This document shows positions 1,655-10,510 of a DNA stretch of 14,325 nt, piece by piece. The translations under genes and the position numbers were made by a program. Below the pieces are notes generated by a model. That model ran no database searches. It saw only the letters and a program-made list of their open reading frames with translations, and had not been told where the DNA came from. The stretch covers positions 1 to 14,325 of the forward strand of contig DASVDK010000353.1 of NCBI GenBank assembly GCA_036381125.1, read 5' to 3'. Positions within the stretch are counted from its first letter, which is position 1. Each line of letters opens with the position of its first letter. This DNA comes from DASVDK01 sp036381125 [NCBI: Thermodesulfobacteriota bacterium] (lineage in GTDB: Bacteria; DASVDK01).

Positions 1655-2356
1655 TCACGACCCCCCGCCGGCCCGAACCCGGGCGACCTCTGCTGCCATC
1701 AGGTCGACCACCTCGTCGATGGAGAGCGGCCCGGTGTCGAGCAAGATGGCGTCCGGCGCCCGGACGAGGGGCGAGTGCGCCCGGGTCCGGTCCCGCTCGT
1801 CCCGAGTGGCCATGTCCCCGGCGAGCCAGACCCTGTCGACGACGTTCCCCTGCTCGGCCAGCTCGGCCGCGCGGCGCGCGACCCGGACCTCGAAGGGGGC
1901 CGTGAGAAAGAACTTCACCTCCGCGTCCGGGAAGACGACGGTCCCGATGTCGCGGCCGTCGAGCACCACGTCGCCCGCCTGCCCGAGCCGCCGCTGCTGG
2001 GCCACGAGGCTGCGGCGGACCCCCTCGAGCGTCGAGACCCGGGAGGCGGCCTCGGCCACCTCCGGCCGCCGGATCTGGGCCGTGAGGTCCTCGCCGTTTA
2101 CGACGACCCGCGGCCGGGCGTCGGGCGACGGGTTGGACCGGTCGGGCGGGAACTCGAACGCCAGGGAGTCGGCCAGGCCGGCAAGGCGCTGCTCGTCGTC
2201 GAACGGGATGCCCTGGCGCATGGCCAGCCAGGCGACCGCCCGGTACATGGCCCCGGTGTCGATGTACGAGAGGCCGAGCCGCACGGCCAGGCGGCGTGCG
2301 GCGGTGCTCTTCCCGGAGCCCGCGGGGCCGTCGATGGCCACTCTGATCGGCCTCAC
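1655..2356 (-). CDS. cmk: Cytidylate kinase (CMP/dCMP kinase)
   Basis: Phosphorylates CMP and dCMP with ATP in the cytoplasm for nucleotide supply. The N-terminal P-loop GPAGSGKST is at residues 10-18 and is followed by the DTGAMYRA segment of the CMP site. The VLDGRDIGTVVFPDA motif and the late RDxxDRxRxxxPL arrangement with a DTG near the C-terminus are diagnostic. I chose the GTG at 2354-2356, preceded by AGGTGAG about 6 bases upstream; this gives 233 residues, normal for the family. The frame stays open upstream to 2470, but that stretch is a low-complexity Arg/Gly/Pro translation without homology features. The TGA stop sits inside a GGGGTC/GACCCC inverted repeat (1651-1664). It lies between aroA and rpsA, a conserved bacterial order. 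Confidence 0.95.
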   Translation of the reverse strand: MRPIRVAIDGPAGSGKSTAARRLAVRLGLSYIDTGAMYRAVAWLAMRQGIPFDDEQRLAGLADSLAFEFPPDRSNPSPDARPRVVVNGEDLTAQIRRPEVAEAASRVSTLEGVRRSLVAQQRRLGQAGDVVLDGRDIGTVVFPDAEVKFFLTAPFEVRVARRAAELAEQGNVVDRVWLAGDMATRDERDRTRAHSPLVRAPDAILLDTGPLSIDEVVDLMAAEVARVRAGGGS

Positions 2357-2539
2357 GACCTGCTCACCTGCTGGCACGGGCCTTCCGCCGCGCCACCCCC
2401 GCCCGGCGGGGTCCCCCGCGGCCGCCCGCGACCAGGCGCGCGCGGGCCCTCCGCGGGGCCCCCGGCGCACCGGGAGGCCTCCCTCCGCGGCCCGACGCGA
2501 GAAGCGGCGTTCGCAAGGCGTACCTGAGAAGGTACTTCA
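2357..2539. other. aroA-cmk spacer, GC-rich, no gene seen
   Basis: This 183-base gap is unusually long for an otherwise tightly packed operon. It contains a hairpin directly after the aroA stop (2520-2535) and several G/C-run inverted repeats further on. I see no convincing promoter box or small gene. The cmk reading frame happens to remain open across part of it, to 2470. It may be an mRNA processing or partial-termination segment. Confidence 0.4.
2520..2535 (-). other. hairpin just after aroA stop
   Basis: A perfect 6-base stem GTACCT/AGGTAC with loop TCTC (minus strand) begins 4 bases after the aroA TGA. No T-run follows, so it does not qualify as a standard intrinsic terminator. It could stabilise the 3' end of an aroA transcript or be chance. 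Confidence 0.3.
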
Positions 2540-3856
2540 TCACCGTCTGAGGCCGTCGAGGAGGTCGGCGAAGCCGGGGAAGGATGTGTCGATGCAGGCG
2601 GCGTCCTCGACCACGGTCTCCCCGGCGGCCACGAGGCCGGCGACCGCGGCCGACATGGCGGTCCGGTGGTCCCCGCGCGAGCCGACGCGGGCGCCGCGGA
2701 GCGGGCGGCCCCCCTCGATGACCATCCCGTCGGGGGTCGGCGTCACGCGCCCCCCCATGCGGGTCAGCGTCTCGGCCATCGAGGCGATCCGGTCGGTCTC
2801 CTTGACCCGCAACTCCTGGGCGTCGTGGATGACCGTCGTCCCCTCGGCCACCGCCGCGGCGACGGTCAGGGCCGGCAGCTCGTCGATGGCCCGCACCACG
2901 AGGTCGCCGGCGATCTCGGTCCCCCGCAGCCGGCTCGCCCGCACGCGCACGTCGCCGACCGGCTCGGGGCCGTCGTCCCGCCGCGCGACGACCTCGATGC
3001 TGCCCCCCATGGCCCGGAGCACGTCGAGCGCCCCGGTCCGCGTCGGGTTGAGCCCGACCTCCCGCAGGAGGAGGTCCGAGCCCGGGGTGATCAGCGCCGC
3101 GACGAGGAAGAAGGTGGCCGAGGAGAAGTCTCCCGGCACGGCGAACGCCCGCCCCGACAGGCGCGTCCCCCCGCGGACGGCGACGCCGTGGCGGCCCAGC
3201 CGGTGGAGGTCGGCCCCCATGAAGGCGAGCATCCGCTCGGTGTGGTCGCGAGACACCCGCGGCTCCTCGACCACGGTCTCGCCGTCGGCCACGAGGCCCG
3301 CAAGGAGGAGGGCCGACTTCACCTGGGCGCTCGCCACGGGCGAGTCGTAGTGGATGCCCGTGAGCGGCGAGCCGACGATGGTGAGCGGCGCCCGCGTGCC
3401 GCCCTGGCGGCCGATGATCCGGGCCCCCATGCGGGCGAGCGGATCGATCACCCGCCCCATCGGGCGACTCCGCAGCGACGCGTCGCCCGTGAGGACCGAG
3501 ACGAAGGGCTGACCGGCGAGGATGCCGGTGAGCAGCCGGGTCGTCGTGCCGGAGTTGCCGCAGTCGAGGACGTCGTCCGGCTCGACCAGGTGCTGGCCGG
3601 CCCGGCGCGGGCCGCCCGCCCCCCTGATCGTGACCGTCGTCCCCTCGAGGCGGACGTCGACCCCCATCCGCCGGAACGCCTCGACCGTCCGGTGGTTGTC
3701 CTCGCCGGTGAGGAAGCCGGTCGCGCGGGTCTCCCCTTCGGCCAGGGCGCCGAGCATGACGGCCCGGTGGGAGATCGACTTGTCGCCCGGCACGCGCGCC
3801 TCGCCGCGGAGGGGCGCGCCGGACGTGACGGTGAGCGTGCGGGGGGTGCCGGTCAT
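2540..3856 (-). CDS. aroA: 3-phosphoshikimate 1-carboxyvinyltransferase (EPSP synthase), class II-like
   Basis: Transfers enolpyruvyl from PEP to shikimate-3-phosphate, the sixth shikimate-pathway step. The 438-residue protein has the two-lobed family signatures in order: GDKSISHR (residues 24-31), LDCGNSGTTTRLL, GDASLRSRPMGRV, SAQVKSALLLAG, SRDHTERML, NPTRTG, LRVKETDR and DHRTAMS. GDKS, SAQxK, RDHTE and NxTR are the motifs used to define class II (CP4/Bacillus-like) enzymes, many of which tolerate glyphosate. The active-site NSGT keeps the Gly that is Ala in CP4, so tolerance is not assured. The ATG (3854-3856) overlaps the tyrA TGA in an ATGA arrangement, which indicates translational coupling; an AGGGA lies about 9 bases upstream. 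Its length is normal and the protein appears intact. Confidence 0.97.
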   Translation of the reverse strand: MTGTPRTLTVTSGAPLRGEARVPGDKSISHRAVMLGALAEGETRATGFLTGEDNHRTVEAFRRMGVDVRLEGTTVTIRGAGGPRRAGQHLVEPDDVLDCGNSGTTTRLLTGILAGQPFVSVLTGDASLRSRPMGRVIDPLARMGARIIGRQGGTRAPLTIVGSPLTGIHYDSPVASAQVKSALLLAGLVADGETVVEEPRVSRDHTERMLAFMGADLHRLGRHGVAVRGGTRLSGRAFAVPGDFSSATFFLVAALITPGSDLLLREVGLNPTRTGALDVLRAMGGSIEVVARRDDGPEPVGDVRVRASRLRGTEIAGDLVVRAIDELPALTVAAAVAEGTTVIHDAQELRVKETDRIASMAETLTRMGGRVTPTPDGMVIEGGRPLRGARVGSRGDHRTAMSAAVAGLVAAGETVVEDAACIDTSFPGFADLLDGLRR

Positions 3857-4719
3857 CCGATGCGGTCCCTGAGCGCCTTCGCCGAGGCGAAGGTCCGCTC
3901 GACGAGGTCGCCGTCCCCGGCGCTGAGCCCGGCCCGAAGCCGGGTCACCTGCGCCGAGAAGGCGTCGATCGCCTCGATGAGGTGGCGGCGGTTCGCCAGG
4001 CAGATGCCGCGCCAGAGGGCGGGCGACGAGGCGCCGATCCGGGTCGTGTCCCTGAGCCCGCCGCCCGAGAGGCGCAGGGCCGCATCGGCCAGGGTCGGGT
4101 CCTCGGCAAGCGTCGCCAGGAGGGCGTAGACGACCAGGTGCGGCAGGTGCGACACCGCGGCGAAGGCGGCGTCGTGCGCCTCCGGCTCCATTCGCAGGAC
4201 CGTGGCGCCGAGGAGACGCCACAGCTCCGTGACCCGGGCCACGGCCGCCTCGTCGGTGCCGGCGAGCGGCGTGACGACGGCGAGGCGCCCCGCGAAGAGG
4301 TCCGCGCTGGCCGCGGCGAGCCCCGAGCGCTCCGTGCCGGCGATGGGGTGGCCAGGCACGAACGGGACGCCGGCGGCGGCGGCCGGCTCGCGGAGGGCGG
4401 CGATGACCGGCCCCTTCACGCTCCCCACGTCGGTCACGACGGCTCCGCGGCCGAGGTGCGGCAGGGCGGCCCGCGCCGCGCCGGCCATCGACTCGATGGG
4501 GGTCGCGAGGAGCAACAGGTCGGCCCCTCGCGCGGCAGCCGCCGCGTCCGGGCTCGCCTCGGCCACGAGGCCGGCCGACACGGCCGCCGCGCAGGCGGCC
4601 GGGTCGGTGTCGGCGCCGGTCGCGCGCCCGAAGAGGCCGCGCGAGCGGCCGGCCGCGAGGACCGAGCCGCCGATCATGCCGAGGCCGACGACGGCTATGT
4701 GGCGGAACGGCGGGGTCAC
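3853..4719 (-). CDS. tyrA: Prephenate dehydrogenase (TyrA family)
   Basis: Oxidatively decarboxylates prephenate (or arogenate) toward tyrosine, in the cytoplasm. The 288-residue protein starts with a Rossmann nucleotide-binding motif, VVGLGMIGGS, and an acidic residue at the end of the second strand (GADTD) that favours NAD over NADP. The family's GHPIAGTERSG substrate/catalytic segment follows, then a helical dimerisation domain with SHLPHLVVYALL. There is no fused chorismate mutase and no C-terminal ACT domain; mutase activity comes from pheA. The GTG at 4717-4719 shares its first base with the aroF TAG stop (TAGTG). The frame is open further upstream, but that portion is antisense-like translation across aroF. 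Whether it prefers prephenate or arogenate cannot be read from the sequence. Confidence 0.94.
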   Translation of the reverse strand: MTPPFRHIAVVGLGMIGGSVLAAGRSRGLFGRATGADTDPAACAAAVSAGLVAEASPDAAAAARGADLLLLATPIESMAGAARAALPHLGRGAVVTDVGSVKGPVIAALREPAAAAGVPFVPGHPIAGTERSGLAAASADLFAGRLAVVTPLAGTDEAAVARVTELWRLLGATVLRMEPEAHDAAFAAVSHLPHLVVYALLATLAEDPTLADAALRLSGGGLRDTTRIGASSPALWRGICLANRRHLIEAIDAFSAQVTRLRAGLSAGDGDLVERTFASAKALRDRIG

Positions 4720-5735
4720 TACATGTCTCGCCCGACGACCCGGGCGATCTGCCTGAGGTCCTGCATGAGCGAGGCGAAGCGCTTCGGCTTGAGCGCCTGG
4801 GGACCGTCGCAGAGCGCCACCTCCGGCCTGGCGTGGACCTCGATCATGATGCCGTCGGCGCCGGCCGCCACGCCCGCCCGGGCGAGCGGCTCGACGAGGC
4901 TCCACTTGCCGGTGGCGTGCGACGGGTCGACCACGATCGGCAGGTGCGTCAGCTCCTTGAGGAGCGGCACCGCCGAGATGTCGAGCGTGTTGCGCGTGGC
5001 GGTCTCGAAGGTGCGGATGCCCCGCTCGCAGAGGACGATGTCGCGGTTGCCCTCGCTCATGATGTACTCGGCCGCGAGCAGGAACTCGTTGATCGTGGCC
5101 GAGAGGCCGCGCTTGAGGAGCACCGGCTTGCGCACCTTGCCGACCTCCGTGAGGAGCCGGAAGTTCTGCATGTTGCGGGCGCCGATCTGGATCACGTCCG
5201 TGTACTTCATGATGGCCGGCAGGTCCGAGGCGTCCATCAGCTCGGTCACGACGCGCAGGCCTGTCTGCTCGCGCGCCTCCGCCAGGTACTCGAGTCCCTC
5301 CTCGCCGAGCCCCTGGAAGGCGTAGGGCGAGGTGCGCGGCTTGAACGCCCCGCCGCGGAGGAACTTCGCCCCCGCCTCCTTCACCGCGTGGGCCAGCTCG
5401 AGCACCATTCCCCGGTCCTCGACCGAGCAGGGGCCGGCGATCATCTGCACCGCCGTGCCGCCGAACACCGCGCCCCTCACGTCGATCAGCGAGTTCTCCG
5501 GCCGGAAGTCCCGCGAGGCGAGCTTGTAGGGTTTCAGGATGGGGACGACCCGCTCGACGCCCGGAAAGCCGTCGATCGGCTGCGACTGCAGGAGCGTCTC
5601 GTCGCCGATGGCCCCGATGACGGTCCGCTCGGTCCCCTTCGAGATGTGCACCCGGTACCCCATCTGCTCGAGGCGCCTGGTGACGCGCTGGATGTCCTCG
5701 TCGCTCCGATGGGTCGGCTTCATCACGATGATCAT
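4719..5735 (-). CDS. aroF: 3-deoxy-7-phosphoheptulonate (DAHP) synthase, T. maritima type with N-terminal regulatory domain
   Basis: Condenses PEP with erythrose 4-phosphate, the committed first step of aromatic biosynthesis. Residues 1-65 form the ferredoxin-like (ACT-related) domain that in the Thermotoga maritima enzyme mediates tyrosine feedback inhibition. Residues 70-338 are the TIM barrel with GPCSVED (101-107), LRGGAFKPRTSPY (126-138), KRG (208-210) and DPSHATG (270-276). C103, H273, E299 and D310 fall one residue from the known T. maritima metal ligands (C102, H272, E298, D309), so the site looks complete. The ATG is preceded by AGAGGA about 10 bases away. It is separated from hisC by 92 bases and touches tyrA. 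The symbol aroF is used by family convention. Confidence 0.96.
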   Translation of the reverse strand: MIIVMKPTHRSDEDIQRVTRRLEQMGYRVHISKGTERTVIGAIGDETLLQSQPIDGFPGVERVVPILKPYKLASRDFRPENSLIDVRGAVFGGTAVQMIAGPCSVEDRGMVLELAHAVKEAGAKFLRGGAFKPRTSPYAFQGLGEEGLEYLAEAREQTGLRVVTELMDASDLPAIMKYTDVIQIGARNMQNFRLLTEVGKVRKPVLLKRGLSATINEFLLAAEYIMSEGNRDIVLCERGIRTFETATRNTLDISAVPLLKELTHLPIVVDPSHATGKWSLVEPLARAGVAAGADGIMIEVHARPEVALCDGPQALKPKRFASLMQDLRQIARVVGRDM

Positions 5736-5779
5736 GCGTCTGTCTTCCTCTTGCCTCTACGGGCCACTGGTCCCTCTCT

Positions 5780-5795
5780 GCGCGCCCCGGCGCGC
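5780..5795 (-). other. hairpin in hisC-aroF spacer
   Basis: A perfect 6-base GCGCGC stem (7 if the inner C-G pair forms) with a short loop lies in the 92-base gap between the hisC stop and the aroF start. It is about 45 bases before the aroF ATG. No T-run follows on the minus strand. It might be an mRNA structure affecting aroF expression, but simple GC repeats like this also arise by chance here. Confidence 0.25.
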
Positions 5796-5827
5796 ATCCG
5801 CGGCGTCACCCTGCGCACCGGCCGCCC

Positions 5828-6931
5828 CTAGCCCCGGAGGCACGCCGCGAGGGCGGCGACGCACCGTTCGTTCTCGATTCGCGTCCCGACCGAGATGCGG
5901 ACGTGGTCCGGCAGGCCGTAGCCGTCCACGGGGCGCACGATCACCCCCGCCCCGAGGAGCGCGTCGGCGAGCGCGGCCCCCTTGACCGGCGTCTTCACCA
6001 GCAGGAAGTTCGCCTGCGACGGCACGACCTCGAGCCCGAGGCGGCCGATCGCCTCGGCGAGGTACCGGCGCCCCTCGAGCGTCACGTCCCGGGTCGTCTC
6101 GAGATGGGACCGGTCGGCGAGGGCCGCCTCGGCCGCGGCGAGGGCCGGGCGCGACACGTTGAAGGGGGGCCGCACGCGGTTCAGGTCGGCCGCCACGGCC
6201 GGCGTCGTGAGGCCGTAGCCGACCCGGAGGCCGGCCAGGCCGTAGATCTTCGAGAACGTCCGGAGGACGAGGACGGGCGGGCGTCCCGGCCTGCCGTCCC
6301 GGAGGTACGCGAGCCCGTCCGGCACGTCCGACCGGTCCACGAACTCGATGTACGCCTCGTCGACGACGAGCAGCAGGTCCGGCGGCAGCCGGTCAACGAA
6401 CCGGCCGAAGGCCGGCTCGGTGACCACCGTCCCGGTCGGGTTGTTCGGATTGCAGACGAAGACGATCCGCGTCCTCGGCGTGACCGCGGCCAGCATCGCG
6501 TCCAGGTCGTGCACGAGGCCCCGGCACGGCACCTCGACCGGCCGGCCGGCCGCCGCCGTCACGGCGAGCTTGTAGACCACGAACGCGGGCGCGGCCATGA
6601 CCGCCTCGTCGCCCGGCCCCACGTAGGCCCCGACCGCCAGCCGGATCAGCTCCGAGGAGCCGGCGCCGACGACGATGCCGTCGGCGGCGAGCCCGAAGTG
6701 GGCGGCAAGCCTCTGGCGGAGCGCCCAGCCGCCGTCGTCCGGGTAGCGGTGCACGTCGGCCAGCGCCTCGCGCGCCGCGGCGAGCGCGAGCGGCGACGGG
6801 CCGACGGGGTTCTCGTTTGAGGCGAGCTTGACCGAGTCGGAGATGCCGAGTTCCCGCTCGACCTCCTCGATCGGCTTGCCCGGCACGTACGGGACGAGGC
6901 CGGCGACGTGCGCCGGCGGTCGGAGTGTCAT
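5828..6931 (-). CDS. hisC: Histidinol-phosphate / aromatic aminotransferase (HisC family, PLP-dependent)
   Basis: A fold-type I PLP aminotransferase of 367 residues. It has LASNENPVGPSP near residue 40, GAGSSELIRL for cofactor phosphate binding, CNPNNPTGT, VVDEAYIEF, and the Schiff-base lysine K228 in TFSKIYGLAGLRVGYG. The RISVG arginine near the C-terminus binds the substrate carboxylate. By family it transaminates imidazole-acetol phosphate in histidine synthesis. No other his gene is present, and it sits between pheA and aroF/tyrA, so I infer that its main role is phenylpyruvate and 4-hydroxyphenylpyruvate transamination, as known for some HisC proteins. The ATG (6929-6931) follows GGAGGGGGG by a few bases and lies 20 bases after the pheA stop. 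Exact substrate range is undecided. Confidence 0.93.
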   Translation of the reverse strand: MTLRPPAHVAGLVPYVPGKPIEEVERELGISDSVKLASNENPVGPSPLALAAAREALADVHRYPDDGGWALRQRLAAHFGLAADGIVVGAGSSELIRLAVGAYVGPGDEAVMAAPAFVVYKLAVTAAAGRPVEVPCRGLVHDLDAMLAAVTPRTRIVFVCNPNNPTGTVVTEPAFGRFVDRLPPDLLLVVDEAYIEFVDRSDVPDGLAYLRDGRPGRPPVLVLRTFSKIYGLAGLRVGYGLTTPAVAADLNRVRPPFNVSRPALAAAEAALADRSHLETTRDVTLEGRRYLAEAIGRLGLEVVPSQANFLLVKTPVKGAALADALLGAGVIVRPVDGYGLPDHVRISVGTRIENERCVAALAACLRG

Positions 6932-6951
6932 GGCGCCCCCCTCCGCCGGCC

Positions 6952-8034
6952 CTAACCCCGAGCCTTCGGGTAGGAGCCGAGGACCTTCACGAACTGGGTG
7001 TAGTGCCGAAGCTCGTCGAACGCGGCAGCGAGCCGGGGGTCCGACATGTGACCCTCGACGTCGAGGAAGAACACGTAGTCCCAGGCCCGCTTCTTGGTGG
7101 GACGGCTCTCGATCTTGGTGACGTTCACCCCCCGCGACGCGAAGCAGCCGAGGATGCGGTGGAGGATGCCGACCTCGTCCTTGATCGAGAAGAGGAGCGA
7201 CGTCTTGTCCGCGGCGCCCCGCTCCGGCTCCTTCTGGCCGATGACGAGGAAGCGCGTGGTGTTGTGCGGGTTGTCCTGGATGCGCCGCGCGACCGGCCGG
7301 AGGTTGTAGAGCGACCCCGCGACCTCGCTCGCGATGGCGGCGGCGGTGGGGTCGTCGACGACCATCTGCGCGGCGGCCGACGTGCTGGTGACGTCCACCG
7401 TCGGCACGTTGGGCAGGTGCTTCTGGAGCCAGAGGCGGCACTGGGCGATCGCCTGCGGGTGCGAGTAGATCTTCTGCACGTCCTCGATCCGGCCGGAGAC
7501 GCTCAGCAGGTCGTGGTGGATCACGAGCTGGATCTCGGCGAAGATCTTCAGGGCCGAGTCGAGGAACATGTCGAGGGTGTGGGTCACCACCCCCTCGGTG
7601 GAGTTCTCGATGGGGACGACGCCGAACTGCACCCGCCCGCGCTCGACCTCGTCGAAGACGTCGGCGATGGTTCGGGCCGCGACGTACGTCGCCGAGCTGC
7701 CGAACTGCTGGACGGCCGCCTGGTGCGTGAAGCTCGCCTTGGGGCCGAAGAAGGCCACCTGGACCGGCTGCTCGAGGGCGAGCGACGCCGAGATGATCTC
7801 CCGGTAGACGGTGTGGAGCGCCTCGGTCGGGAACGGCCCGGTGTTGATCCGGGCGAGCCGCTCGTGGACCTCGCGCTCGCGCTCGGGCGCGTAGAAGCTC
7901 CTGCCCGTCTCGCGCTTGAGGTCGCCCACGCGGAGCACCGCGGCGGCTCGGCGGTTGAGGAGCGCGACGATCTCCGCGTCGACCGCGTCGATCTCCTGGC
8001 GCAGGCGGGCGAGTTCGGCCGACGGGTCGGCCAT
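6952..8034 (-). CDS. pheA: Bifunctional chorismate mutase / prephenate dehydratase (P-protein)
   Basis: Converts chorismate to prephenate and then to phenylpyruvate. The 360-residue protein has an AroQ-type helical chorismate mutase at about residues 5-88 (LRQEIDAVDAEIVALLNRR, then GDLKRETGR). The prephenate dehydratase domain spans about 91-270, with VAFFGPKASFTHQAA, VPIENSTEG and the catalytic-site TTRF at 259-262. A C-terminal ACT domain spans about 278-350, with GIL (289-291) and the ESRP motif (309-312) that binds phenylalanine for feedback inhibition. The ATG at 8032-8034 has GGAGG 7 bases upstream (complement of 8042-8046). It is the first gene of the aromatic operon, directly behind a good promoter. 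The frame continues upstream as non-conserved sequence, which I excluded. Confidence 0.97.
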   Translation of the reverse strand: MADPSAELARLRQEIDAVDAEIVALLNRRAAAVLRVGDLKRETGRSFYAPEREREVHERLARINTGPFPTEALHTVYREIISASLALEQPVQVAFFGPKASFTHQAAVQQFGSSATYVAARTIADVFDEVERGRVQFGVVPIENSTEGVVTHTLDMFLDSALKIFAEIQLVIHHDLLSVSGRIEDVQKIYSHPQAIAQCRLWLQKHLPNVPTVDVTSTSAAAQMVVDDPTAAAIASEVAGSLYNLRPVARRIQDNPHNTTRFLVIGQKEPERGAADKTSLLFSIKDEVGILHRILGCFASRGVNVTKIESRPTKKRAWDYVFFLDVEGHMSDPRLAAAFDELRHYTQFVKVLGSYPKARG

Positions 8035-8064
8035 GAGGGTGCCTCCGGAGCAAGGAATCCCGGG

Positions 8065-8325: not shown

Positions 8326-8444
8326 GCAGCCCGCTCGGGCGACGTGCTCGTCTCGACGTGCCCGCACCGCGTGCTCCGCATCCAGACGATCCCGCCGCCC
8401 ACCCCCTCGCTCTGAAGCGTCACCCTCCCGGAGGGAGACCGCCG

Positions 8445-8792
8445 ATGTTGATGAGACTCCTGTTCTCGATCCTGGCGCTCGTGGCGATCGCCTGGGCGAC
8501 GCCGGCGACGGCGGCCCCCACGGCCCTCGCCGACTCGGACCTCGACTCCATCGTCGCGGGACACGACTGGAAGGACCGGCACGTCGACCGCAAGAAGGAC
8601 TTCGACAGGAAGGACTTCGACAAGAAGGACCGCGGCAAGCACCTCGGCCAGAAGAAGGACAGGAAGCACAAGCACTTCGCCGACAAGAAGAAGGACAGGG
8701 CGCACAAGCGCTTCGCGCACCAGGACCGCAAGCATCACCTCGTGAAGAAGATCCTCGTCATCAAGCACGTTCGCCTCCTGAACCTTCACTAG
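8445..8792 (+). CDS. Small secreted Lys/His/Asp-rich repeat protein with leader-like motif (putative substrate)
   Basis: I recognise no named family. The 115-residue product has a clear signal peptide (residues 1-24, ending ATPATAA). Next comes LADSDLDSIVAG (28-39), which resembles leader ends cut after Gly-Gly or Ala-Gly by C39 proteases. Residues 40-115 contain 19 K, 9 R, 11 H and 12 D of 76, with no Glu and no Cys. They form imperfect 10-12-residue repeats beginning KKDR and end in a hydrophobic-basic tail (about 99-115). The ATG at 8445 has GGAGGGAG about 8 bases upstream; the ATG at 8451 is an alternative. A strong hairpin follows the stop, then genes for a C39-like protease and an outer-membrane pore. 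I infer that it is the exported, processed substrate of those two. Antimicrobial, metal-binding or matrix roles are all possible. Confidence 0.75.
   Translation: MLMRLLFSILALVAIAWATPATAAPTALADSDLDSIVAGHDWKDRHVDRKKDFDRKDFDKKDRGKHLGQKKDRKHKHFADKKKDRAHKRFAHQDRKHHLVKKILVIKHVRLLNLH
8622..8750 (+). repeat. imperfect tandem repeat of about 30-36 bases inside the small secreted-protein gene
   Basis: Residues 60-102 are built from degenerate units starting KKDR: KKDRGKHLGQ, KKDRKHKHFAD, KKDRAHKRFAHQ and the partial DRKHHLVKK. The DNA units start aagaaggac and are 30, 33 and about 36 bases long. Two shorter KDFD units (residues 51-59) precede them. The pattern suggests internal duplication followed by divergence. 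Confidence 0.6.
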
Positions 8793-8809
8793 CCGCTCGC
8801 GCCCCGGCC

Positions 8810-8837
8810 CCCCCGGCGAGCCGGAGCTCGCCGGGGG
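8810..8837 (+). terminator. strong GC hairpin between the small gene and the C39 gene (partial terminator or RNA stabiliser)
   Basis: CCCCCGGCGAG (8810-8820) and CTCGCCGGGGG (8827-8837) form a perfect 11-base stem with a 6-base loop, starting 18 bases after the TAG stop. No T-run follows, so full intrinsic termination is not expected. Such hairpins often protect the upstream message and reduce read-through, which would raise output of the small protein relative to the protease and pore. Confidence 0.55.
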
Positions 8838-8876
8838 CCGCCCGGGACGCGACGGTTCCGGAGTCGCAAGAGGCCG

Positions 8877-9539
8877 ATGCACCCGAACCGGGCGGCCCGC
8901 TGCCGCCTCACCCTGGCCCTCGTCGCCCTTGCCTCCGCGGCCGGCGCCTGCGCCGCCGCACCGGCCCCGGACGCGGGCGCGGCCGGACCGGGCAAGGCCG
9001 TCCGCTCCCTCCTCGAGATCCGCCGGGCGGGCGTCGTCATCCAGGAATGGGACCTGAGCTGCGGCGCCGCGGCGCTCAGCACCGTGCTCTCCTACGACTA
9101 CGACGACTGGACGCCCGAGCGCGAAATCGCCCTCTCGATCCTCGAGCAGACCGATCCGGCGCGCGTGCAGCGGCGCGGCGGCTTCTCGCTCCTCGACCTC
9201 AAGCGCTTCGCCGAGAGCCGCGGCTACAGGGCGACCGGCTACCGCGGCCTCACGATCGAGGACCTCACGGCCCTCGAGGCGCCGGCGATCGTGCCGGTTC
9301 GCGTCAAGGGGTACGAGCACTTCGTCGTCGTCCGCGGCGTGCGAGGCGACCGGGTGCACCTCGCCGATCCGGCCTTCGGCAACCTGACACTGCGGCGCGA
9401 CCAGTTCCGGCGCGTGTGGTACGACGGGATCGGCTTCGTCGTCGACCGCCCGGCTCCCGAGGCGCCCGATCCGGCGCCCGACCCGATCCCCGACACGCCC
9501 GGCGACGCGCCGACCGGCGAGATGCGGCACGAGCCGTGA
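8877..9539 (+). CDS. Exported stand-alone C39-family cysteine protease (FapD-like)
   Basis: A 220-residue protein with an N-terminal export signal; AAGAC at residues 21-25 is a weak lipobox, so it may be a lipoprotein. The peptidase C39 fold covers about residues 42-187. Q56 (oxyanion hole) lies six residues before catalytic C62 in QEWDLSCGAAAL; H148 is in GYEHFVVVRGV and D164 in VHLADPAFG. All catalytic residues are therefore present. The GFSLLDLKRFAESRGY segment matches FapD-type proteases of Pseudomonas functional-amyloid operons. The C-terminus is a Pro/Asp-rich tail. Unlike bacteriocin exporters it has no ABC transporter domains, so it would act in the periplasm. The ATG is preceded by AAGAGG at short spacing. 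Its stop overlaps the next start (GTGA). I infer that it cleaves the small secreted protein, the pore, or both. Confidence 0.85.
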   Translation: MHPNRAARCRLTLALVALASAAGACAAAPAPDAGAAGPGKAVRSLLEIRRAGVVIQEWDLSCGAAALSTVLSYDYDDWTPEREIALSILEQTDPARVQRRGGFSLLDLKRFAESRGYRATGYRGLTIEDLTALEAPAIVPVRVKGYEHFVVVRGVRGDRVHLADPAFGNLTLRRDQFRRVWYDGIGFVVDRPAPEAPDPAPDPIPDTPGDAPTGEMRHEP

Positions 9540-10510
9540 GCGGGCCGCGGCGCCGCCGCGGCGTCTGGCTTGCGGTCCTCGCCGCCGCAGCGGCACTCGA
9601 GGCCGGCGCACCGGACCCGATCCGGGCCGAGGAGCCGACCGAGTCGGACGAGGAGGCCGAGGAGGCGCAACTGCTGACCGCGCTCGAGCGGGCGCTCATC
9701 CAGCGCGGCGGGCTCCTGCTGCCGCCCTGGCGGGTCGAGATCGAGCCCAGCCTCACGTACACCCAGTCGACCCGGCAGACGCTCGCCACGGACGACGCCG
9801 GGGTCGCCTTCACCGAACGGGTGCAGCGCGACACCCTCGACCCCGAGGTGACCTTCAGGCTCGGGCTGCCGTGGCGGCTCCAGCTCGCGACGACCGTCCC
9901 CTTCCGCTACGAGCGGCAGCGGACCGTGATCGCGGACAGCGCCGAGGAGACGCGCGATCGGTTCGGGCTCGGCGACGTCGACGTGGAGCTGAGCGCGCAC
10001 CTCCTGCAGGAGCGCGGGCTCCTGCCCGACCTGCTGGCGAGCGCCCGCTGGAAGAGCACGACCGGCGAGGGGCCGTTCGAGGTCGGCCCGGGCGAGATCC
10101 CCCTCGGCACCGGCTTCGACGCGATCGAGGTGACCCTCACCGCCACGCGGTCGCGCGACCCCGTCGTCTTCATCGTGGACCTGACCTACACCGTGAACGT
10201 CTCGACCGCAACGTCGCTCGGACGGATCGACCCGGGCGACGAGATCGGCTACGCGCTCGGGCTCGTGCTCGCGCTGAACCCGGAGACCTCCCTCGACCTC
10301 ACGTTCGAGCACCGGTTCGCCCGTCACACGACCCTGGCGGGCGAGCAGGTGCCGGGCACCTCCGAGTCGATCGGCCTGGTCTCGCTCGGGACCTCGTACG
10401 TCCTCGCGCGCAACGTCTCGCTCGACCTGTCGGTGGGGTTCGGCGTGACCGCCGACGCCCCGGACGTTCAGGTGACGCTCGCGGTCCCGGTCCGCTTCCC
10501 CCCCCGCTGA
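9536..10510 (+). CDS. Outer-membrane beta-barrel protein, FapF-like putative export pore
   Basis: A 324-residue protein starting at GTG 9536-9538, inside the stop of the protease gene, so it is probably translationally coupled. It has a basic N-terminus and hydrophobic signal peptide (about 1-31), an acidic stretch (32-43) and a short helix (about 44-57). Then comes RGGLLLPPWRVEIEPSLTY (57-75), characteristic of FapF-like and Phenol_MetA_deg-type barrels as I remember the family. Residues 66-324 alternate polar and hydrophobic residues in amphipathic strands with acidic turns, as in a barrel of about 12 strands. It ends VRFPPR, so the terminal residue is not the usual aromatic. FapF is a trimeric, helix-plugged pore exporting amyloid subunits; a similar role for the small protein at 8445 is inferred. 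It could instead be an unrelated porin. Confidence 0.8.
   Translation: MSGPRRRRGVWLAVLAAAAALEAGAPDPIRAEEPTESDEEAEEAQLLTALERALIQRGGLLLPPWRVEIEPSLTYTQSTRQTLATDDAGVAFTERVQRDTLDPEVTFRLGLPWRLQLATTVPFRYERQRTVIADSAEETRDRFGLGDVDVELSAHLLQERGLLPDLLASARWKSTTGEGPFEVGPGEIPLGTGFDAIEVTLTATRSRDPVVFIVDLTYTVNVSTATSLGRIDPGDEIGYALGLVLALNPETSLDLTFEHRFARHTTLAGEQVPGTSESIGLVSLGTSYVLARNVSLDLSVGFGVTADAPDVQVTLAVPVRFPPR

Follow-up and report, generated by a model that had tools for sequence, protein, structure and literature searches.

Features of the three-gene module

The DNA analysed here, called the window, is a stretch of 14,325 nucleotides from a Thermodesulfobacteriota bacterium (DASVDK01 sp036381125; assembly GCA_036381125.1, contig DASVDK010000353.1). 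It carries three open reading frames (ORFs) on the forward strand, which encode a small leader-bearing protein (the cargo), an exported C39 peptidase (the protease) and an outer-membrane barrel, and which are flanked on both sides by gene groups on the opposite strand. We consider it probable that these genes together form a compact module for protein secretion in two steps, of the FapD/FapF kind. The protease stop and the GTG start of the barrel gene overlap by 4 bases (GTGA, 9536-9539), as the first-pass annotation of this DNA had stated, and 84 bases separate the cargo gene from the protease gene. The features, with the basis of each in brackets (HMM, hidden Markov model), are as follows.

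8430..8434, +: GGAGG, likely ribosome-binding site of the cargo gene (read directly; 10 bases before the ATG)
8445..8792, +: cargo gene, 115 residues, stop included (ORF, translation, leave-one-out leader HMM, E 2.2e-7)
8445..8513, +: likely Sec signal peptide, residues 1-23, ATA/A (by eye; aligned with 51 others)
8526..8561, +: C39-type leader core L-12 ADSD L-7 DS I-4 V A-2 G-1 (leader HMM; spacing compared with PMC6363468 and PMC6959990)
after 8561, +: predicted cut site (end of the leader core)
8562..8789, +: predicted mature cargo, 76 residues, 67% K/R/D/E/H, K+R minus D+E = 16 (composition)
8810..8837, +: hairpin in the cargo-protease gap, 12-bp perfect stem, 4-base loop, no T run behind
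8877..9539, +: exported FapD/FilB-like C39 peptidase, 220 residues (Pfam, NCBIfam, alignment, model)
9060, 9318 and 9366, +: protease catalytic residues Cys62, His148 and Asp164
9536..10510, +: FapF-fold outer-membrane barrel, 324 residues, GTG start (NCBIfam, PDB matches, model)
9641..9703, +: predicted helix ahead of the barrel, residues 36-56 (secondary structure of the model)

The leader of the cargo protein

The 115 residues of the cargo consist of a signal peptide, then ALADSDLDSIVAG, then 76 highly charged residues. Signal peptides were judged by eye and by hydrophobicity, and the hydrophobic signal of the cargo ends between ATA and A. A leader HMM trained on 51 other leaders, the window being left out, was run against the 173 window frames of at least 30 residues. 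It picked the cargo frame with an E of 2.2e-7, and the next best frame reached 0.081. The G+C content at third codon positions was 96% in the cargo gene and 94 and 96% in the neighbouring genes. These data uphold the first-pass description of three co-oriented genes of which one encodes a leader-bearing protein with a signal peptide.

The groove of the LahT protease takes V-4, L-7 and L-12 of the leader (PMC6363468), and the leader consensus of the PCAT family is L-12xxxE-8L-7xxxxG-2G-1 (PMC6959990). The window leader, directly behind the Sec-like signal, has L-12, D-8, L-7, I-4, A-2 and G-1. It fits the PCAT consensus except for D at -8 and A at -2, and it has all the C39 leader positions, namely hydrophobic residues at -12, -7 and -4 and small residues at -2 and -1. 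Judged from the sequence, its spacing is that of known C39 leaders.

In the small proteins adjoining related proteases, motifs such as LSDSQMDAVSAGG come after a Sec-like signal. The 72 leaders compared (71 from 29 loci of the protease clade, plus the window) have L-12 in 69, M or L-7 in 72, D-6 in 72, V or I-4 in 69, A-2 in 68, G-1 in 65, T or S-3 in 61 and Q or E-8 in 62; since the search pattern preset most of these positions, the findings are limited to the narrowing within its choices, plus T/S-3 and Q/E-8.

Recurrence of leader genes beside the protease

The window protease was aligned with relatives from plasmid records, public genomes were then scanned, and the best 80 loci (L numbers) of at least 592 stretches were kept, so the locus set leans toward near relatives. 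Of the ORFs lying within 3 kb on the same strand as the protease, 75 of 1219 fitted a first pattern, which was written after examples were seen, vs 10 of 3069 other ORFs at the same loci. Fixed patterns for each of three branches were then counted, with near ORFs defined in the same way. The AG pattern in the AG branch (32 loci) matched 68/459 near ORFs vs 7/1090 far ORFs, at 27 of the loci. The GQ pattern in the Fil branch matched 18/281 vs 7/725, at 13 of 22 loci, and the RG pattern in the Fap branch 43/549 vs 8/1409, at 28 of 33 loci. Under these patterns, 9/22 Fil-branch and 5/33 Fap-branch loci were leader-free within 3 kb. The patterns of the other branches gave 0-1 near matches, except for the AG pattern in the Fap branch (14/549), the form of which also accepts LDxVRGG.

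In the protease clade of the window, the HMM found a leader gene in 29 of the 32 other loci. A looser pattern found another in L017, at 12432 and 5.8 kb downstream of the protease, and L017 was rejected as a leader-free locus. The contigs of L027 and L043 begin at the protease and show no leader gene there. Thus the recurrence of a small leader gene beside such pairs, which had been predicted for this DNA, was found, and no pair without the small gene was seen in the clade beyond the two truncated contigs. When ORFs of at least 80 residues from 33 loci were grouped by BLAST, the widely shared genes were the protease (33/33), the barrel (31/33) and the cargos.

No leader was found in the 3.2 kb of G683/L165 (protease E 9.7e-40). 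Among the 18 loci L170-L187, L175, L179 and L181 showed no leader in their 2.0-3.4 kb, the sole leader match of L174 falls inside the protease itself, and L170 has a leader. RGG or RGR leaders adjoin FapD-like proteases in L172, L173, L176, L177 and L182-L187, which belong to the phyla of the L053 and L028 genomes; these leaders widen the Fap-type dialect.

Whole-genome co-occurrence

Run against the 16 genomes behind 16 of the loci, the leader HMM produced 58 matches (E <=0.01). In 51 of these the match extends into the leader part of the model, and 50 of the 51 lie within approximately 5.5 kb of the protease. Of 200 genomes from the order of G011, 5 carry the AG-type protease (E <1e-60) and 6 have leader matches (E <=1e-4), namely the same 5 genomes plus G067, whose match was rejected for want of AG. 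Of 274 genomes from the class of G010, 5 carry the protease (E <1e-55), and these 5, with no others, have leader matches. Combined, the leader occurred in 10/10 genomes with the AG-type protease vs 1/464 without it (the spurious match of G067), up to two genomes possibly being in both samples. Another 25 and 20 genomes of the two samples had weaker C39 matches and no leader match; in some genomes a fraction of the first-look candidates was scored, so that misses are possible. Seven of the ten protease-type genomes lie outside the training loci (G095, G099, G158, G351, G369, G387 and G461).

In a third sample of 247 genomes from the phylum of G003, where leaders were sought at the protease loci, a protease match was found in 10 genomes, 9 of them at E <1e-60. 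The HMM placed a leader gene directly upstream in 7 of 8 previously unused genomes, several of which are near copies of each other. In the eighth, G536, the leader gene was recognised by eye and in a wider stretch.

Protease tree and leader endings

The window belongs to a clade of 34 rows on the protease tree (support 99/89), of which 30 are labelled AG, 1 ends in GG (L037) and 3 are unlabelled (L017 and the cut loci L027 and L043). The leader labels changed 18 times on the tree vs a shuffled mean of 41.7, and in 0 of 200 shuffles was the number as low; near copies on the tree favour such clustering. The window shows all features of the AG branch, that is, a protease in the AG clade, a FapF-like barrel nearby and a nearby protein with a signal and an AG leader.

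Protease and barrel

The window peptidase matches Pfam C39 (PF03412) with an E of 5.7e-17 and 62.2 bits, vs a gathering score of 22. Its N-terminus is hydrophobic, and C62, H148, D164 and Q56 are invariant across 31 aligned proteases, the window included, in agreement with the exported C39 protease with intact catalytic residues that was annotated at first. The best NCBIfam match is FilB (E 1.4e-34), followed by FapD (E 2.6e-32), both far under their cut-offs. The best match of its AlphaFold2 model (mean predicted local distance difference test score, pLDDT, 81) is the LahT protease-leader complex 6mpz, with an E of 5.6e-8. A tandem pair of C39 genes (L026:2481-3104 and 3321-3947) was observed at a locus with four leader-bearing cargos.

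The barrel matches FapF with an E of 4.3e-15 in NCBIfam and 2.3e-10 among PDB sequences, and also FilC (E 1.8e-11). It had been proposed that its N-terminus resembles FapF; the sequence similarity instead spans residues 94-320, within the barrel. In the structural comparison with FapF, suggested at the same time, the model has a mean pLDDT of 86, and its first 18 PDB fold matches are all FapF chains, followed by COG4313. The best FapF fold match has an E of 2.7e-20 and a template modelling score of 0.82 by target length. The predicted helix at residues 36-56 of the model is possibly the counterpart of the FapF plug helix.

Composition of the cargos

The charged fraction of the window cargo is 0.67, vs a median of 0.11 among 75 leader proteins (72 of the AG clade, window included, and 3 from L039 and L042). 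The next most charged are L015 and one L039 protein, both at 0.28, and N+Q make up 4% of the window cargo. Of the AG clade leader proteins, 43/71 consist of at least 40% Ala/Gly/Ser/Thr and carry little charge (median 0.11), and each locus has 1 to 7 leader proteins. The first-pass annotation had proposed a Lys/His/Asp-rich substrate of a new class. A small leader-bearing protein as substrate is likely, but the Lys/His/Asp composition is that of an outlier, not of a new class. Directly behind its leader, a Nitrosomonas cargo (L015:4498-4815, minus strand) has a Lys/His/Asp patch, TKKHDHHADWKHFDHKFFKGPK, which is the nearest parallel to the window cargo.

Two protein families are common to the five nearest relatives (L009, L011, L014, L023 and L025). 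One is a small cargo (LININAVNSxVxVLLNLNxNI); the other is a large protein, which is leader-bearing by HMM in 4 of the 5 and, among the 33 loci compared, limited to these five. Neither family is present in the window. Large leader-bearing proteins of about 370-600 residues were seen at L009:3815-5503, L011:2483-3694 and 3741-5528, L023:4232-5362 and L025:2479-3714.

When 70 cargos were compared with NCBIfam at E 0.05, the matches were all weak and fell in 18 families, the top ones being Asr (6 members, best 5.7e-4), ExtJ (5, best 0.024) and the CTB bacteriocin family (3, best 0.011). Against Pfam, 11 families were weakly matched by one member each, the best at 0.0024. The Asr match of the window cargo (E 5.7e-4, 20.7 bits vs a cut-off of 50) was rejected as an acid-shock identity. 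No DUF6160 or FilA match was found for the window cargo in Pfam or NCBIfam.

Comparison with known systems

Like the window, the Fap system of Pseudomonas (FapA-F) has a C39 protease that is exported and a barrel with the FapF fold, and the one authentic FapE examined has a leader built in the same way, L-12 SDA E-8 L-7 AQ L-4 R G-2 R-1, the second R being -1. However, the window leader ends in AG and the Fap leader in RGR/RGG; the window protease scores 111.9 vs the FapD cut-off of 330 bits (NF058616) and the barrel 55.4 vs the FapF cut-off of 700 bits (NF058560). The window barrel lacks the FapF-type N-terminal coiled coil or heptad stretch (alignment of 22, by eye), and the window cargo is charged rather than Gln/Asn-rich. 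No match to the amyloid subunits FapB and FapC or to FapE was found among the 11 window proteins scanned, as had been noted for the subunits, and the 8 scanned proteins from the rest of the window, outside the module, include no Fap-like protein.

Fil, a putative pilus system of Acinetobacter (FilA, FilB and FilC), is also close to the window: among NCBIfam families the protease is most similar to FilB, a match to FilC is found for the barrel as well, and the FilA protein of L005 (332.9 bits, cut-off 220) has a signal followed by MDDAALSAATGQ, which has the same frame as the window leader. The differences are that the window scores 119.7 vs 475 bits for FilB and 44 vs 630 bits for FilC, that its protease lies on a separate branch, that its leader ends in AG and the Fil leader in GQ, and that its cargo lacks a DUF6160 or FilA match. 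Two FilA/DUF6160 proteins (L005:4700-5545 and L076:5331-5762) carry the leader MDDxALSxxTGQ and adjoin their C39 protease.

The PCAT/AMS proteins (LahT, PCAT1 and ComA) share the C39 fold and a leader with L-12, L-7, a hydrophobic -4 and small -2 and -1. Unlike them, the window protease is a separate exported protein without an ATP-binding cassette (ABC) transporter domain, and its leader follows a Sec-like signal, with A-G replacing G-G.

Such pairs were already known. As early as 2013, FapD and FapF were called likely members of two larger families (PMC3792158), and colocalised fapD-fapF homologs have been noted in five additional phyla (PMC6173800). Since such pairs outside fap operons were already reported and Fil is a second one, the claim of an undescribed export system was too strong. 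The regular C39-leader spacing, of which FapE and FilA have modified versions by sequence comparison, was undervalued in the first-pass annotation. No description of a C39 leader behind a Sec signal in Fap, Fil or their relatives was found in the open-access literature searched.

FapE as a candidate substrate of FapD

The catalytic cysteine of FapD is needed for amyloid secretion. In a Pseudomonas genome, the protein encoded at L166:730-1467 (minus strand) is FapE (341 bits, cut-off 250); it adjoins a FapD that passes the NCBIfam cut-off, and its next neighbour is FapC (294 bits, cut-off 195). This FapE has a signal peptide, then VELSDAELAQLRGRY; with the last R before Y as -1, this gives L-12, E-8, L-7, L-4 and G-2. 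The neighbouring FapC has no such leader motif near its start. The comparison with authentic FapE is made on one protein, and an Aeromonas FapE-like protein below the FapE cut-off carries LADGELAHLRGRY. P. otitidis and PA7 were set aside as canonical Fap references; matches there were all below the FapD cut-off.

Rouse et al. report no peptides from the first ~70 FapE residues and regard FapF itself as a possible FapD target (PMC5557850). A December 2025 review names the N-terminus of FapE and the periplasmic portion of FapF as presumed targets of FapD processing (PMC12822426). Our comparison suggests FapE as a candidate leader-bearing substrate of FapD, with a candidate cleavage position after LSDAELAQLRGR.

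A model of secretion and its alternatives

We propose that Sec would export the 115-residue cargo and that signal peptidase would remove approximately residues 1-23. The periplasmic C39 peptidase may then bind the exposed leader through L-12, L-7 and I-4 and, judging from the leader, cut after AG. The 76-residue charged mature protein would leave unfolded through the FapF-like barrel, an exit suggested by the fold similarity of the barrel model to FapF. Our guess is that the released polyampholyte binds anionic matrix polymers or metal ions. The stretch 8790-8880 between the cargo and protease genes folds at z -3.8, and its hairpin possibly sets the expression of more cargo than machinery.

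Several points weigh against this model and the evidence behind it. The window cargo is unlike the 74 other leader proteins, the window protease reaches at best 47% identity in 247 genomes from the phylum of the L053 genome and 245 from that of L028, and the heptad-like stretch found before the barrel in many relatives is absent (alignment of 22, by eye). The leader HMM was trained partly on loci from the same scan, and the leader pattern preset [LIVMFA], [LM], [DS], [VIMA], [AGSY] and [GAQS] at -12, -7, -6, -4, -2 and -1. The E cut-offs for the protease type were placed after the score gaps were seen (3.4e-68 to 2.9e-46 and 3.4e-59 to 2.4e-49). Among the genomes counted as independent, G095 shares 85% DNA identity with L029 across 3.4 kb, and the leader genes of G099 lie about 6 kb from the protease. 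Leader genes are on the opposite strand in L015 and mostly so in L038. On the tree, 39 of the 89 rows have no leader label under the pattern used and were counted as a label of their own. A small gene standing alone elsewhere had been named as a finding that would speak against the link; 50 of the 51 matches lie near a protease, and the one orphan is a FilA-like protein with PLDDAELSQVSGADG (L188:5037-5504), with no protease or pore within 5 kb. The L188 genome carries an AG module elsewhere.

Three other explanations were considered. The cargo could be a bacteriocin-like or signalling peptide that acts on other cells, with the cytosolic ABC exporter replaced by Sec and an outer-membrane pore. 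Leaders of the C39 type are characteristic of antimicrobial and quorum peptides (PMC6363468), the mature peptide is small and cationic, and weak matches to the CTB bacteriocin family were found for 3/70 cargos (best E 0.011). We nevertheless hold this unlikely: no widespread immunity-like or modifying gene was found among ORFs of at least 80 residues in the 33 loci, where shorter genes would escape, and the Ala/Gly/Ser/Thr-rich, low-charge cargos, 1 to 7 per locus, look more like matrix or fibre proteins. Another explanation is a degraded Fap-like operon that has kept its protease and pore but has lost its true substrates or has them encoded elsewhere in the genome, with the charged ORF left as a remnant undergoing drift. 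This would account for the missing small cargo and large protein families of the five nearest relatives and for the barrel without its N-terminal stretch. It appears quite unlikely for a leader intact at every spacing position, three open frames, normal-looking codon use and ribosome site, and intact catalytic residues.

The C39 protease might also process the pore or another envelope protein, with the cargo a periplasmic basic protein of the Asr kind that lies upstream by chance. The weak Asr matches of the window cargo and of 6/70 cargos, and the view of FapF as a possible FapD target in Rouse et al. (PMC5557850), agree with this, but it would leave unexplained the leader HMM match, the C39-type spacing and the co-occurrence of leader and protease type across genomes, and we regard it as very unlikely. 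The two-step secretion module thus remains our preferred reading.

Neighbouring genes

On one side, the opposite strand carries pheA, hisC, aroF, tyrA, aroA and cmk; this cluster of aromatic amino-acid genes, hisC and cmk occupies 1655-8037 and adjoins the module. On the other side lie, also on the opposite strand, a TRAP fused permease and a TAXI binding protein. The names in both flanks were assigned from family matches. From sequence reading alone, a response-regulator-like gene was seen within about 3.1 kb of the protease in L017, L018, L021, L023, L024 and L038, and a LysR-type-regulator-like gene recurs in L013, L019, L022, L029 and L030.

Implications

We incline to the view that a single widespread, previously unrecognised secretion code exists in three dialects, those of Fap (FapE, RG[GR]), Fil (FilA, GQ) and the AG branch. 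The code would take the form of a Sec signal, then L-12 ... M/L-7 ... hydrophobic -4 ... [AG] or RG, then G, Q or R, and would be read by a periplasmic FapD-type protease, the cargo being released by a FapF-type barrel. Amyloid export would then be one use of the code, and the window would show it detached from amyloid, with a charged polyampholyte. For the cleavage site of FapD, the comparison names a concrete candidate position in FapE with a rule behind it. The scattered pairs of fapD-fapF homologs would become one secretion system with a readable substrate tag, by which small secreted proteins without any family may be recognised from sequence.

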